Shown here: in pieces, positions 42,729 through 61,639 of the stretch
Layout: each line of letters starts with the position of its first letter
Numbering within the stretch: the first letter of the stretch is position 1
Source of the DNA: a bacterium BMS3Abin11
GTDB taxonomy: Bacteria > Pseudomonadota > Gammaproteobacteria > BMS3Bbin11
Direction of reading: 5' to 3'
NCBI GenBank assembly: GCA_002897635.1
Contig: BDTD01000011.1
Span: 2,501-66,500 of the forward strand
DNA: 64,000 nucleotides
Position numbers and translations under genes: made by a program
The notes under the pieces: model-generated
Database searches by the model: none
Told to the model about the DNA's origin: nothing
Seen by the model: only the letters and a program-made list of their open reading frames with translations

Positions 42729-43442
42729 CTACCTTACAGGCCAATAGACAGTTGGATCCGCTGTATCTGTCTGATTAAATCCATCTGCCCGCAAATGGCA
42801 TGAATCACAAACCCCGCAGGCAAGCCCATCAGGCGATGGGTTATAACAGGATATTGTGAGACTGTAATCAACGCCTAGCCTAACGCCTGTATTAATAATG
42901 TCGGCCTTGCTCATATCAATCAACGGTGCCCTGATTCGAAACCCCTCACCTTGCACACCTTCACGCGTTGCCAGATTTGCCAAATTTTCAAAGGCTAAAA
43001 TAAATCCAGGACGGCAATCCGGGTAGCCTGAGTAATCCACTGCGTTAGCACCGATGAAAATATCCCTGGCACCATATATCTCGGCCATAGCCAATGCCAT
43101 GGATAAAAATACAGTATTCCGCGCTGGAACATAGGTAACTGGAATACCGCTATCCTCAAATTCGCTGACTTTCGGTAGATCAATAGCATCATCCGTTAGT
43201 GCAGAACCACCCAGTTCTCCAATTGGCAGATTAAGAATTCTATGTTCTGCAACCCCACCAGCGTTAGCTACACGCCTGGCTGCCTCCAGTTCGACACGAT
43301 TACGCTGACCATAATCAAAGCTAAGTGCAAAACACTGGTAGCCTTCATTACGTGCGATAGCAAGGGCGGTCGCGGAATCCAGGCCACCGGAGAGAAGCAC
43401 TACCGCTTTATCTGCTTTATCTGCCTTATCTACCACGCTCAT
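42729..43442 (-). CDS. queC: 7-cyano-7-deazaguanine synthase (PreQ0 synthase)
   Basis: ATP-dependent conversion of CDG to preQ0 in queuosine synthesis. 237 residues. PP-loop [16 protein letters not shown], zinc-site cysteines in [20 protein letters not shown]. The N-terminus carries three repeats DKADKADKA from a 9-base tandem repeat (43400-43434) not usual in QueC. Start overlaps the stop of queE by 17 bases. Confidence 0.95.
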
Positions 43443-44106
43443 CTCCCCACAGATACTTGTGTAGCTGGATTTGCATTCTAACCAGAAGATTGTCGTTCAG
43501 TATCCATTCGGCCATGTCCACTGGATCAAGCTCACCATGCACTGGCGAAAAGAGTATTTCACACTTCCCTGTTAATTCATTTTCTTCTATAAACTGCCGG
43601 CTCCAGTCATAATCTACCCGGTCAGTGATCACAAACTTGACCTGATCACTGCTTTTCAGCAGTTCGATATTCTGGAAGCGGTTACGGTCCGATTCGCCAG
43701 AGCCGGGCGTCTTGATATCCATAATAGTTGAGACCCGTTTATCCACCTGGCTTATATCTATTGCACCACTTGTTTCCAGTGATGTGGTGTAACCGGCATC
43801 ACAGAGCATCTTCAACAATAGCCAACAGTCTCGCTGCGCCAATGGTTCGCCACCAGTAACAGTTACATAACGAGTAGAATACGATTTAACCTGCTGCAAA
43901 ATTCCAGAAAGAGACATATGCTCTCCTCCTGAAAATGCATAACTGGTGTCACAATAACGACAACGCAAAGGACATCCTGTCAGGCGGATAAATACTGTTG
44001 GAAAACCTGCCGTTCCTGATTCACCCTGTAGTGAATAAAAAATCTCACAAATACGTAGTTCGCGGTCTGCAGCAGGGATCGGGGGATTGTTTGATGTTGA
44101 AGGCAA
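43426..44106 (-). CDS. queE: 7-carboxy-7-deazaguanine synthase
   Basis: Radical SAM enzyme that makes CDG from carboxytetrahydropterin. 226 residues; the cluster motif is [18 protein letters not shown] (CxxxCxxC variant of QueE). The start is TTG at 44106 without a good ribosome site; no better in-frame start is visible before [12 protein letters not shown]. Upstream is the heptamer array at 44120-44154. Coupled to queC. Confidence 0.93.
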
Positions 44107-44119
44107 TGGAGTGGGTTTA

Positions 44120-44154
44120 GACTAAGGACTAAGGACTAAGGACTAAGGACTAAA
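44120..44154. repeat. Tandem heptamer array (GACTAAG) with inverted degenerate array beside it
   Basis: Five GACTAAG-type heptamers at 44120-44154 (four exact, the last GACTAAA). At about 44173-44203 the other strand reads GATAAAG, GACGAAG, GATTAAA, GATAAAA, again period seven and facing the first array, so the region can fold. It lies between cpoB and queE. Confidence 0.85.
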
Positions 44155-44206
44155 GGATTAAATCACTCTCAACTTTTATCTTTAATCCTTCGTCCTTTAT
44201 CTGGGT

Positions 44207-45094
44207 TTAATGCCCTGTTTTCGTCATCTTGTCTAGCCGCATTTTTGCCGAAACTGCGACACGACTGCCAGGATATCGAATAACCACCGCATTCAGCGCC
44301 CTTCTTGCCTGCTCCCACTGCTCATTTTCGAAGTGGATATACCCCACTTTCAACATCGCATCAGGGAGTCGCTTACTTTCAGGGTAGCGCTGTATCAGTG
44401 CATTATACTCATATAGTGCGGCATCGTAGGCACGATTCACATAATGGGCTTCAGCTATCCAGTACTGAGCACTGTCAGCTAATGCACTTCTTGGGAATCG
44501 TGTTTGAAATTCCTTGAAAGCTGCAATGGCTTCCTCATAGCGACTTTGTTTTAGAAGATCGAATGCTCTGTCATATGAAGCCTGCTCCAGTTGAGAAGGC
44601 CCAGCCTGGCTACTTTGAGTTGAATTTTCCGCTGACAATTCCGCCGCAGCGGGTGCAGGCATCCCTGCCTGATTTGTGCCACTCTTATCTGCAGGTGTAA
44701 TCGCTGAAGTCACCCTATCCCCCTGCTTTGGAATAGAGGGGATTTCATTGTCAGTTATCTTACCAGACGCAGGCGCAACAGGCGCAGTCATGGATGGCGA
44801 AGACATTTCGATACTGCGCATACGGCGGTCAAGATCATCAAAAATTCCGGATAATCTCTCGCGTTGCCTGTTCAGTTTGTTTTCCTGCACATCAACTGTA
44901 TTCTGTAACCTTGATATTTCGCTCTCCAGGCTGTTAACCCGCCCTAGCAGCTGTAATTGCGGGTTTACCTGAGTAGCAGACGGCCGCACAGTTGCAGCCG
45001 TCGTTTCATTGCAGGCACTCAACAGCAGCAAAGAGCTGAGTACCATCGGCAATAATAAACTCCTCATCGAAAAACGATTGATCTTACCTGTCAT
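44207..45094 (-). CDS. cpoB: Cell division coordinator CpoB (YbgF)
   Basis: Periplasmic TPR protein of the Tol-Pal system that coordinates outer-membrane constriction with wall synthesis. Starting at the ATG 45094 (overlapping pal by 11 bases) it has 295 residues: signal region ending SLLLLSACNET, a coiled coil (about residues 45-85), a low-complexity linker, and C-terminal TPR repeats (YDRAFDLLKQSRYEEAIAAFKEF). The LSAC looks like a lipobox, which is not usual for CpoB. Confidence 0.93.
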   Translation of the reverse strand: MTGKINRFSMRSLLLPMVLSSLLLLSACNETTAATVRPSATQVNPQLQLLGRVNSLESEISRLQNTVDVQENKLNRQRERLSGIFDDLDRRMRSIEMSSPSMTAPVAPASGKITDNEIPSIPKQGDRVTSAITPADKSGTNQAGMPAPAAAELSAENSTQSSQAGPSQLEQASYDRAFDLLKQSRYEEAIAAFKEFQTRFPRSALADSAQYWIAEAHYVNRAYDAALYEYNALIQRYPESKRLPDAMLKVGYIHFENEQWEQARRALNAVVIRYPGSRVAVSAKMRLDKMTKTGH

Positions 45095-45608
45095 AGCGTA
45101 TCTCGACACGGCGGTTTAAACGCCATGCCGATTCATCATGCCCTTCTGCAACCGGGTTTTCTTCACCGTAGGAAATAACATCAATATTGGCGGCATTGAC
45201 ACCCAGAGCGATAAAGACGTCCGCCACCGTCTGTGCGCGACGCTCGCCCAGGGCGAGATTGTATTCACGCGTGCCGCGTTCGTCAGTATGGCCTTCGAGT
45301 ACTACTCTAGTTGCAGGGTGGTTGCTTAAATAAACCGCATGAGCTTCAACGATTGCCTGGCTCTCAACATCCAGTTCACTGCTGTCATAGGCAAAATAAA
45401 CCTGGGTCTGGGCAAGCAGGTCCGCTGAAGCGCTATTCTGCCAGTCACCCAGAGGTTTACCATCGGGTCCAAATCCAGCTCCGGTTCCGGTTGCAGAAAC
45501 CCCACCCATGTCAGCACCTTCTGCCTTGCGGTTTTTCTTATTACAGCCACTTACTACTACCATGCCAGCCAACAGTACTATTAGAATTAACTTACTCGTA
45601 TTTTTCAT
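45084..45608 (-). CDS. pal: Peptidoglycan-associated lipoprotein Pal
   Basis: Outer-membrane lipoprotein that binds peptidoglycan and TolB. 174 residues; lipobox VVSGC near residue 22 after a hydrophobic signal; OmpA-like domain with YFAYDSSELD, VVLEGHTDERGTREYNLALGERRA and the C-terminal RRVEI. GAAGAG precedes the ATG. Fifth gene of the tol-pal run. Confidence 0.96.
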   Translation of the reverse strand: MKNTSKLILIVLLAGMVVVSGCNKKNRKAEGADMGGVSATGTGAGFGPDGKPLGDWQNSASADLLAQTQVYFAYDSSELDVESQAIVEAHAVYLSNHPATRVVLEGHTDERGTREYNLALGERRAQTVADVFIALGVNAANIDVISYGEENPVAEGHDESAWRLNRRVEIRYDR

Positions 45609-49893: not shown

Positions 49894-49935
49894 AGGTTTT
49901 AGGTTTTAGGTTTTAGGTATTACGTTTTATGATTT
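49894..49935. repeat. Tandem heptamer array (AGGTTTT)
   Basis: Three exact AGGTTTT units at 49894-49914 followed by AGGTATT, ACGTTTT, ATGATTT, still in period seven. Shortly after come the ACCTAAT and ATCTAAT units at about 49942-49969 and a CCTCTGTGTCCTCTGTGG stretch. It lies between ybgC and ruvB, where I see no gene. Confidence 0.85.
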
Positions 49936-57294: not shown

Positions 57295-57338
57295 GTTTTT
57301 TGTGGCAAACCCACCCTTTAGGCGATGCAACAGGCATT

Positions 57339-57360
57339 AAAAAACCCCGCATCTGCGGGG
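57339..57360 (-). terminator. Terminator of the cold-shock gene
   Basis: CCCCGC/GCGGGG stem with loop ATCT and six U on the minus strand; 30 bases past the csp stop codon. Confidence 0.85.
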
Positions 57361-57389
57361 ATTCTTATACAAACCAGAACCTGGATTAT

Positions 57390-57593
57390 TCAGGCAGGGG
57401 TAACATTCGATGCCTGTGGCCCTTTTGGGCCAGTCTCTACATCATAGGAAACAGCCTGTCCTTCTTCAAGCGTTCTGAATCCATCTGAAGCAATAGCAGA
57501 GAAATGTACAAATACATCTGCGCTACCATCATCTGGAGTAATAAATCCGAAACCTTTGGAGTTGTTAAACCACTTTACGGTACCTGTAGCCAT
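57390..57593 (-). CDS. CspA-family cold-shock protein
   Basis: Single-stranded RNA/DNA-binding OB fold. The ATG at 57593 gives 67 residues starting [20 protein letters not shown] with RNP1 KGFGFITP and RNP2 VFVHFSAI. The gap of 296 bases to yaeQ includes its upstream region; long leaders are usual for csp genes, but no specific structure is claimed. Confidence 0.95.
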
Positions 57594-57889
57594 GTGCAAA
57601 AAACCTCAATAAAAAAAATAATAAACATTACAAAGTGTTACCTGCACAACAGCCTATGGCCGTTAATGGTCTACTGAAACCGTGCTCAACAATATTGTAA
57701 TTCTTTTGAATACAGGAAGCATGCAAGTGCACGCTATCCAATATTCTGCCCGAGTATATAAGAACAAATTATCATATACAACAGTAAATTAATGATAAGA
57801 ATTATGTGTTTTATTAACTACATAGCCAGTTTCCAGGACTGTACAATGGTAGAATAATTACCCGATAAATACTGGTTTGATTCAAATCA

Positions 57890-59433: not shown

Positions 59434-59476
59434 GCAGAGGAAAGGTAAAAGAGGAAGGAGGAAAGGAAAATCAGGA
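59434..59476. repeat. Purine-rich heptamer-phased stretch
   Basis: Units of period seven (AGGAAAG, GTAAAAG, AGGAAGG, AGGAAAG). It shares GCAGAGGAAAGGTAAAAG with 25065-25082. A complementary CCTTTCCTCTTTA follows at 59490-59502, so the segment can fold. Confidence 0.65.
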
Positions 59477-59499
59477 TCAAAACCGCCAGCCTTTCCTCT

Positions 59500-59555
59500 T
59501 TAGGGCACCCCCTATTTATTCTGGATAATACAGAATAAATAGAGGTACCCTTTAA
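59500..59555. repeat. Reduced inverted-repeat element ending at the sbcB stop
   Basis: TTAGGGCACCCCCTATTTAT at the left and ATAAATAGAGGTACCCTTTA at the right pair with a seven-base loop. Same end sequences as the 28291 element but without its interior. The right tip contains the sbcB stop codon, so it could end both srkA and sbcB transcripts. Confidence 0.7.
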
Positions 59556-60997
59556 CCTTTAACCTGATTCATCAATCCCGAAACCCATGCCTCAAGCTGC
59601 TGCATCAGTTTAAGCTTGTCTTCATCCGTCTCTTCATCATAAATCTCACGCATCCTTTGATTAAAGGCTTCAAGTGTAAGTGTACTACCTAAATCACCTT
59701 CCAGCAGTCTGACTCGACAAAATTCCCTCCACCATTTTTGGTCATCTTCTGATAACAGATGCGGCCAGTTGCGTGCACGATAACGGGGGAAAAGCTGCTG
59801 TAGTCTCTGGTCCTCAAAATCTGGCTGCCAGTCCATCAGGTCTTCAGCTTTGGAATTCAGTATTTTGTTGCTTATACGACGGTCAGCATCACCGAGAAAC
59901 CCCCCATATAATGATGTATCAACATCCCCCGGTTCAATTGGCGTACGTTCCTCATACACTTCCTTTATGCGCTGTACTAAACCCTTATCCGCTAATAACT
60001 GATCACGATGTTTTTTAATGGCTGTAAGATCGATCTTCCAGCGTTTGGCCTCAGCACCGCGTAAGGTAGCTATCGGTGCAACGGCGGGTGACTTGTTGAT
60101 ATGCAGGCTCTTCACGCCGACCCGTTCTACTCCTTCCGGCAACTCCTCCTTGCGGGTAAACAAATTCTGACTAATCTCCTTTGAAGACATGGATAATAGT
60201 TTTTTGGGGTCCTGTCTTAGATCTATCACCACTATTTCATTTTTGTTCTGGTTATTCCTGAGCAGCGGCATTACCGGTGTAATACGTCCAAACTCGATCG
60301 GGTACATACCCGACACATGCAGTATCGGTGTTGCATCTTTAAAGTCTTTAATAACTTTAAGAACCTCATTCTTGCGTCGTAGTTTTAAATAATAGTTAAA
60401 AAGATCCGGCTGTTTCTGTTTGATCAGGCGGGCAAGTCCAATCGTTGCATGCACATCAGACAATGCATCATGCGCACCGACATGAGGGATATCATTCGCA
60501 ATAGTCATATCCTCGAGTCGAAAACTGGGTATACCATCGTCCCGTGTCGGCCATTCGATGCCTTCCGGTCGCAGGGCATAGGCCATGCGTACCAGATCAA
60601 TAATGTCCCAGCGACTGTTGCCGTTTTTCCATTCACGCTCGTAGGGATCAATAAAGTTTCGATAGAAACCAAAACGTGTCACTTCATCATCAAAACGTAG
60701 ACTGTTATAGCCCACCCCACAGGTACCAGGAAGGGAAAGATGCTGATGTATCTGCTGAAAAAACTCGGCTTCGGAAATGCCTTTTTCATTCGCCACTTGC
60801 GGTAACAGACCGGTAATCATTACTGAGTCAGGATGCGGTATAAAATCCCCACTGGGGCGGCTATAAATCATCACCTCTTCACCAATAATTTCCAGCTCAC
60901 CGTTGGTACGGATACCGGCAAACTGAGAGGGTCGGTCAGCGCGAGGGTTCAGCCCCCAGGTTTCGTAGTCATGCCAGAAAAATGTCATCTCAGACAT
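59552..60997 (-). CDS. sbcB: Exodeoxyribonuclease I
   Basis: 3' to 5' exonuclease on single-stranded DNA. 481 residues; DEDDh motifs FFWHDYETWGLNPRADRPSQFAG at the start, GYNSLRFDDEVTR near residue 98 and GAHDALSDVHATIGLA near residue 178. The stop codon lies in the repeat at 59500-59555. Confidence 0.96.
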   Translation of the reverse strand: MSEMTFFWHDYETWGLNPRADRPSQFAGIRTNGELEIIGEEVMIYSRPSGDFIPHPDSVMITGLLPQVANEKGISEAEFFQQIHQHLSLPGTCGVGYNSLRFDDEVTRFGFYRNFIDPYEREWKNGNSRWDIIDLVRMAYALRPEGIEWPTRDDGIPSFRLEDMTIANDIPHVGAHDALSDVHATIGLARLIKQKQPDLFNYYLKLRRKNEVLKVIKDFKDATPILHVSGMYPIEFGRITPVMPLLRNNQNKNEIVVIDLRQDPKKLLSMSSKEISQNLFTRKEELPEGVERVGVKSLHINKSPAVAPIATLRGAEAKRWKIDLTAIKKHRDQLLADKGLVQRIKEVYEERTPIEPGDVDTSLYGGFLGDADRRISNKILNSKAEDLMDWQPDFEDQRLQQLFPRYRARNWPHLLSEDDQKWWREFCRVRLLEGDLGSTLTLEAFNQRMREIYDEETDEDKLKLMQQLEAWVSGLMNQVKG

Positions 60998-61041: not shown

Positions 61042-61125
61042 TTCAGTGTTCAGTGTTCAGTGTTCAGTGTTCAGTGTTCAAAATATTTTAACTTTTTACT
61101 GAAAACTGAACACCGAAAACAGAAA
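61042..61125. repeat. Tandem heptamer array (TTCAGTG) facing a degenerate inverted heptamer array
   Basis: Five exact TTCAGTG units at 61042-61076. At 61098-61125 come ACTGAAA, ACTGAAC, ACCGAAA, ACAGAAA, also in period seven and complementary in sense to the first array. The pair sits between the sbcB start and the darP stop. Confidence 0.9.
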
Positions 61126-61126
61126 A

Positions 61127-61639
61127 CTATGTTTTCCGTAATTCTTTTAAATACTGAAACAACAAACGGGCGTATTTTGGTGGTTTTTCCTGCGAATGTT
61201 CTTTACGCGCATTGTGTACCAACTGCCTGAGGTGCTGACGATCTGCATCCTGAAATCTGTTGACTGCCTGATTAATGACCTCATCATCGCCATCCAGCAA
61301 CTTATCCCGCCATTGTTCAATTTCATGAAAGGCCTTTAGCTCGTTCCTTTGCGGCTGTGATATCTGGCTTAACATCTGGCGAATAGCAGCATCGTCTTCT
61401 TCACGCAGCAACTTGCCGATATGTTGTATCTGCCGGCGCAGTGCCTCGCGCTTTAAGCCCTGTGCCAGGATAATCGAATCATGCAGGGACTCAGCCAGGC
61501 CGAACTTTTTAAGTGATACCAGAGGAAGGTCAACCAGCTCCTCGCCAAGGTCTCGCAAGCGCTGCATCTCACGCTTAACCTGAGACTTGCTCTTAGGTAT
61601 CTCATCATTCTCTTCGTACATATTTCTATCATGCATGCT
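61127..61639 (-). CDS. darP: Ribosome biogenesis factor DarP (YjgA, DUF615)
   Basis: Factor in late 50S assembly. Frame opens to 61651; the family usually starts near MHDRNMYEENDE, so one of the next methionines is likely (61636 taken approximately). Conserved KSKSQVKREMQRLRDLGEELV and LRRQIQHIGKLLRE are present, with the final KYARLLFQYLKEL. Length about 170 residues. Confidence 0.88.
   Translation of the reverse strand, partial: SMHDRNMYEENDEIPKSKSQVKREMQRLRDLGEELVDLPLVSLKKFGLAESLHDSIILAQGLKREALRRQIQHIGKLLREEDDAAIRQMLSQISQPQRNELKAFHEIEQWRDKLLDGDDEVINQAVNRFQDADRQHLRQLVHNARKEHSQEKPPKYARLLFQYLKELRKT

Follow-up and report, generated by a model that had tools for sequence, protein, structure and literature searches.

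The cpoB-queE locus

The window, that is, the whole stretch of DNA analyzed here, comprises 64,000 nucleotides (contig C11, positions 2501-66500) of the gammaproteobacterium BMS3Abin11, the assembly of which contains 2.67 Mb in 38 contigs with an estimated completeness of 99.9%. On the - strand, genes occur in the order ruvB, ybgC, ..., tolB, pal, cpoB, queE, and queC, with domains supported by Pfam, and a heptamer array occupies the gap between cpoB and queE. The names ybgC and pal are assigned on the basis of domain and gene order, and QueE is presumably the correct name given its domain and its place beside queC. The features of the locus are as follows.

43426-44106, - strand: queE (radical SAM; Pfam PF04055), downstream of the array
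44120-44153, + strand: pure heptamer array (GACTAAG)4.9 (TRF, 100% matches, score 68)
44154-44172, no strand: decayed end of the array (AAAGGATTAAA) and hairpin loop (sequence, RNA fold)
44173-44201, - strand: degenerate heptad arm facing the array, with the + strand sequence CTTTTAT CTTTAAT CCTTCGT CCTTTAT C (sequence, fold z = -4.7)
44207-45109, - strand: cpoB/ybgF (TolA-binding trimerisation, TPR; Pfam PF16331 and TPR families), upstream of the array

The initial annotation described a GACTAAG array with a facing degenerate heptamer arm at 44120-44203, and this arrangement was confirmed by TRF, by the sequence and by folding. The GACTAAG array decays into ACTAAAGGATTAAA, which is reached by 44165, and the facing arm at 44173-44201 (CTTTTATCTTTAATCCTTCGTCCTTTATC) consists of degenerate heptads read on the opposite strand. 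For transcription from cpoB to queE on the - strand, 44120-44153 is the 3' (downstream) arm. As a single strand the element folds at -27.3 kcal/mol (z = -4.7), none of 200 shuffles folded as well, and part of the predicted stem has unpaired bases at about every seventh position. The array lies 13 bp ahead of the queE ORF start, ORF starts being heuristic, and the array class itself occurs in convergent and co-directional gaps. No terminator-like site with a U-tract was found at 44106-44206, which lacks the GC stem followed by a U-tract of an intrinsic terminator, and no Rfam family matched the arrays within positions 40000-64000 of the window.

Further arrays and arms are present in the same window.

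49894-49929, + strand: second array, unit AGGTTTT, in the ybgC-ruvB gap (TRF, gene calls)
59437-59566, no strand: degenerate heptad arms (GAGGAAAGG..., CCTTTAACCTTTAACC) between convergent genes (TRF, sequence)
61042-61080, + strand: third array, unit TTCAGTG x5.6, in the darP-sbcB gap (TRF, ortholog series)
61098-61128, - strand: degenerate facing arm of the third array (ACTGAAA; TRF, fold z = -5.5)

The arms at 59437-59566 surround a different inverted repeat, AGGGCACCCCCTATTTATTC...GAATAAATAGAGGTACCCT. An element resembling this inverted repeat, GGCACCTCTATTAATTCGTCATTGCGAGGAGCGAAG, sits within a heptad hairpin of the relative G006 (L220:1592-1866). A cspA thermoregulator RNA (RF01766, 96 bits) was detected on the - strand at 57336-57658.

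Period and units of the arrays across the genome

A sample of 1.18 Mb, taken in stretches and equal to 44% of the BMS3Abin11 assembly, was scanned for lag matches (threshold 17 of 21, periods 4-21). Period 7 yielded 58 arrays and each other period 0-9; the nine arrays of period 14 are in part the period-7 signal again. The density is about 50 heptamer arrays per Mb. When the same scan was applied to loci of other bacteria totalling 1.32 Mb, it gave 4 arrays for period 7, whereas period 6 had 29 and period 9 had 22. The initial annotation had suggested one mechanism from a 7-bp period shared by sites in the window, and had set against this idea the case in which period 7 is genome-wide no commoner than 6, 8 or 9 and paired inverted arrays are missing. 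The reverse was found, since period 7 stands out in BMS3Abin11 and not in the other bacteria. Once the arrays were masked, lag-7 matching in the gaps fell to background; a 7-bp background throughout all gaps was therefore rejected, and the arrays are discrete.

The absence of a unit sequence common to the sites, claimed from the window, extends to the genome sample. The 58 arrays comprise 29 canonical units, a count in which some units are close variants of each other and the consensus of mixed arrays is rough. The commonest are AACTTGG, AAGGACT, AAAACGT, and AAACCGT. No GGGNATC-type consensus with G-quadruplex potential dominates among the 29 units, and TAACTGA is absent from those found in 1.18 Mb. 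A rule that units contain AA or TT held for 29/29 but was rejected, as 70% would be expected by chance and the units are not independent.

Facing arms, folding, and placement

An inverted arm no more than 120 bp away, scoring above all 50 shuffles of the array's own flanks, was found for 34/58 arrays, and 24/58 had no facing arm beyond shuffles. Of the arrays, 22/58 scored 14 or more for an inverted arm and 0/58 for a direct one, and swapped flanks of other arrays reached the inverted score in 6.6%. All these figures count paired arrays twice, once per arm. The inverted layout proposed earlier is thus frequent, but it is not always present. In some elements even the order of unit variants is mirrored, as at L046:4392-4486, where AAGTTCC alternates with AAGATCC in each arm (z = -11.7).

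The arrays lie at 3' ends and in intercistronic gaps, with 52/58 outside heuristic ORFs. Because gene calling followed a simple longest-ORF rule, the six arrays that fall within called genes may reflect mis-calls. Arrays occupy 26/387 co-directional, 10/101 convergent and 2/124 divergent gaps, and their scarcity in divergent gaps compared with all others (36/488) has a p of 0.02. The median fold z of array gaps is -2.4, with single elements down to -11.7. Good folding also occurs in array-free co-directional control gaps, 7/25 of which have z below -3. Relative to transcription, the 3' arm was the purer in 13 cases and the 5' arm in 5, with 11 ties, a difference that is not significant with arm boundaries as crude as these.

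A universal loop or flank motif was sought by 9-mer enrichment and rejected, as mostly other repeat families were obtained. The word TCAAAATC is enriched near arrays (7 vs 1.3 expected). A loop core, TCAAAATCGTAACCGGTTTTTCTTTCATC, is common to several hairpins and marks a subset of the elements. Its best four matches (at most 5 mismatches) all lie inside heptad hairpins, at L060:8194 and L014:16563 in BMS3Abin11 and in L227 and L231 of G006, a count that is not independent because the core was built from such loops. Ten shuffled cores gave at most one match each at 8 mismatches, none near arrays. Within each genome the matches lie at separate positions, and copying from one locus to another is therefore suggested.

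Conservation and turnover in relatives

Five MAGs labelled Gammaproteobacteria or Arenicellales encode a TolB with 85-93% identity to the TolB of BMS3Abin11. The commonest unit, AAGTTCC, forms arrays in 7/7 genomes of this uncultured genus and in no other genome of the relatives sample; the sister genus G007 has one small heptad pair in 157 kb. The pattern AAGWTYC x3 was absent from 397 other Pseudomonadota sampled, a result for one unit family only, as other lineages carry other heptamers, among them Trichormus plasmid A and a few viral contigs with several units. All assemblies are MAGs, one per species, so the copy-number variation described below is variation between species. The G006 stretches were picked for holding arrays and are biased for arm statistics.

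In congeners the site is kept and either the copy number shifts in 7-bp steps or the unit is replaced, so unit number does vary between relatives. The cpoB-queE gap contains GACTAAG x5 in BMS3Abin11, GACTAAG x4 in L069, units CCACTTT and AACTGTT in L070, and a GGTTTTACG hairpin in L071 and L072. The 3' arm at darP-sbcB has about 5 GAACACT units in BMS3Abin11, 3 in G003, 2 in G001, and 1 in G002, and AAGTTYC-type units take their place in G004 and G005; the 5' arm differs by one heptad between BMS3Abin11 and G003. At C15:177476 a matched hairpin is present in both BMS3Abin11 and G006, with different units.

The two arms of cpoB-queE have changed together between congeners, and pairing is stronger within (-23.7 kcal/mol) than between species (-13.9). 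Over a small set of five hand-picked sites, with spacers split at the loop by hand, the mean duplex energy of a 5' arm was -28.7 kcal/mol with its own 3' arm, -17.5 with that of another species at the same site, and -13.7 with those of other sites. Co-turnover of the arms is clear at cpoB-queE, C15:177476, and C15:168099; at darP-sbcB it is weak, and C4:75496 shows none.

Comparison with known repeats

The closest published layout, which the initial annotation does not name, is that of inverted GGGAATC pairs in Xanthomonas. Rehm et al. (2015; PMC4692102) have described GGGAATC heptamers in Xanthomonas and GGGGA(C/T)T in Nostoc. In Xanthomonas, 70-75 pairs of arrays are inverted and convergent, and the arrays tend to lie near stop codons, with few between divergent ORFs; array length varies between species and the pair type is usually preserved. 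The arrays of BMS3Abin11 are likewise intergenic tandem 7-bp units close to stop codons, few in divergent gaps, often in convergent inverted pairs (34/58 arrays with an inverted arm), and of a length that varies between species. They differ in that Rehm et al. studied one G-rich consensus per genome, with G-quadruplex potential, whereas a single genome here has 29 mostly AT-rich units, and in that units are replaced at orthologous sites. G-quadruplexes cannot be the common cause.

MacGregor (2015; PMC4679880) has reported TAACTGA direct repeats in marine Beggiatoaceae that are intergenic and dispersed and has proposed a role of cold-shock proteins. These repeats comprise two to six copies, in most cases directly before a start codon and in one case inverted. 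The present arrays are also dispersed intergenic direct repeats of heptamers, but of many units instead of one, often inverted, and rare in divergent gaps. In cyanobacteria, which have heptamers of the STRR kind, plasmid A of Trichormus variabilis (NC_007410) served as a yardstick. Period 7 stands out there too, with 11 arrays of several units in 350 kb. Inverted arms are rarer in this small sample (3/11), and 0/7 canonical units equal any of the 29 found here. The STRR and TAACTGA repeats named in the initial annotation thus agree with the present arrays in period; they differ in sequence and, in the case of TAACTGA, also in where they usually lie.

As described in PMC4679880, Mrazek et al. 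(2007) have reported a heptanucleotide excess in bacterial genomes and proposed that a polymerase contact of 7 nt favours slippage; the description given there includes neither facing arms nor the replacement of units in place. There is no agreed cause for the reported excess. Since heptamer over-representation and inverted Xanthomonas pairs are already published, the arrays of BMS3Abin11 are of the same kind as known bacterial heptamer repeats. What is new is that a single genome has many AT-rich units lacking G-quadruplex potential, and that units turn over in place. Within one genome the many heptamers have nothing in common but the step and, in many cases, an inverted arrangement, and in relatives units are replaced in place with arms matched. 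This separation of the 7-bp step from the sequence speaks against any one binding sequence, and against G-quadruplexes, as a general cause.

Origin of the arrays

The separation of step and sequence points to replication at hairpins. One mechanism acting on the 7-bp step, as first suggested from the window, is still the simplest reading, and slippage fits it best given the 7-bp copy-number steps at orthologous sites. The arrays combine a 7-bp step, diverse units, a frequent facing arm, 7-bp changes of copy number, and in-place replacement of units with matched arms. For these we favour heptad hairpins at 3' ends and in intercistronic gaps, with arms of 7-bp units that grow and shrink by slippage, an explanation that, taken as a whole, has about an even chance of being right. 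Replication slippage in 7-bp steps would lengthen or shorten each arm. Loops of the length of such a step should escape mismatch repair. The nascent strand may occasionally copy the other arm of the hairpin by quasipalindrome-type template switching, which would keep the arms complementary; the arms might also stay matched if selection favours hairpins that pair. New units could arise by mutation of a single unit that then spreads through its array, or by the copying of a hairpin from a different locus, and no dedicated reader would be needed. A hairpin is not required for expansion, because about 40% of the arrays have no facing arm, and slippage alone leaves 7 rather than 6 or 8 unaccounted for. 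The hairpin nuclease SbcD is missing in the genus; since most array-free relatives also lack it, its loss cannot be the cause and is at most permissive. The role of the arrays is most likely mild, with putative hairpins tolerated at 3' ends where no promoter is disturbed. Like REP elements, for which this has been proposed, heptad hairpins might possibly protect or attenuate the 3' ends of mRNAs.

In a tentative and rather unlikely alternative, selection acts on the arms for the RNA hairpins that they form at the 3' ends of mRNAs, as terminators, stabilisers or RNase III sites; heptads would then be no more than raw material, and selection would keep the pairing. The avoidance of divergent gaps is consistent with it, but simple tolerance fits that avoidance equally well. 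It would also agree with the folding of array gaps (median z -2.4, single elements to -11.7), with arms that match within a species despite differing units, and with the general abundance of gene-end hairpins in the genome, seen in the control gaps. Against it, the U-tract of a terminator is missing at cpoB-queE, 24/58 arrays have no facing arm beyond shuffles, and the near-perfect mirrored arms of L046:4392-4486 exceed what selection for pairing would need.

It is improbable that a small REP/MITE-like mobile element, mobilised by a Y1 transposase, gave rise to the arrays as its remnants or copies. The genome has about ten Y1_Tnp matches, the loop core TCAAAATCGTAACCGGTTTTTCTTTCATC recurs at four loci in two genomes, and the same gaps host other inverted-repeat families; however, eight Y1 loci (most about 3.3 kb) contained no heptamer array, fixed ends and target duplication were not seen, and the 29 canonical units are not one conserved sequence. 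Unlike REP/BIME elements with RAYT, the arrays have no single conserved palindrome, TCAAAATCGTAACCGGTTTTTCTTTCATC occurring in few elements only, and none flanks Y1_Tnp in the eight loci examined. A REP-like palindrome, GTAGGTGCGAATTCATTCGCAC, does occur in BMS3Abin11 (e.g., L020:2136 and L037:3615); its core, GTGCGAATTCATTCG, has 45 matches in 1.18 Mb of BMS3Abin11, 2 in the G006 sample, and 0 in the G001 and G003 samples. Another palindrome, TGTGGGAGGCGCGCCTCCCACA, recurs near G006 heptad arrays (L229:5964, L226:930), where its half has 10 matches, and occurs only once in the BMS3Abin11 sample.

There is a similarly small probability that a dedicated process, blind to sequence and advancing by 7 nt, such as a property of a polymerase, primase or repair enzyme of the genus, writes arbitrary heptads at hairpins, in which case period and layout would be inherited and sequence would not. 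Reverse transcriptase was considered as a heptad writer and rejected, the sole match being a 447-aa ORF that resembles a group II intron maturase. This group II intron-type reverse transcriptase ORF (C9:161326-163390) has a Y1 transposase about 1 kb away.

Selection of the period by a hypothetical reader of the arrays, whether protein or RNA, whose footprint spans 7 nt is very doubtful: the period is conserved and the sequence is not, cold-shock proteins reportedly bind heptamer repeats, one per heptamer and with weak specificity (PMC4679880), and a cspA-type thermoregulator RNA lies within the window (57336-57658), but the units are 29, the arrays have no common position relative to start codons, and hairpin arms would be double-stranded.

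Heptamer arrays in other sequences

Among 2.9 million viral contigs, the units of this genome gave 5 and 2 matches. One viral contig from IMG/VR (L245, 14.3 kb) has seven period-7 arrays with seven different units, so multi-unit heptamer arrays are also present in an unrelated phage-like contig. An ACCAGTG heptamer array was also observed in a distant gamma-proteobacterium, Gammaproteobacteria RBG_16_51_14 (L110:1579-1633).
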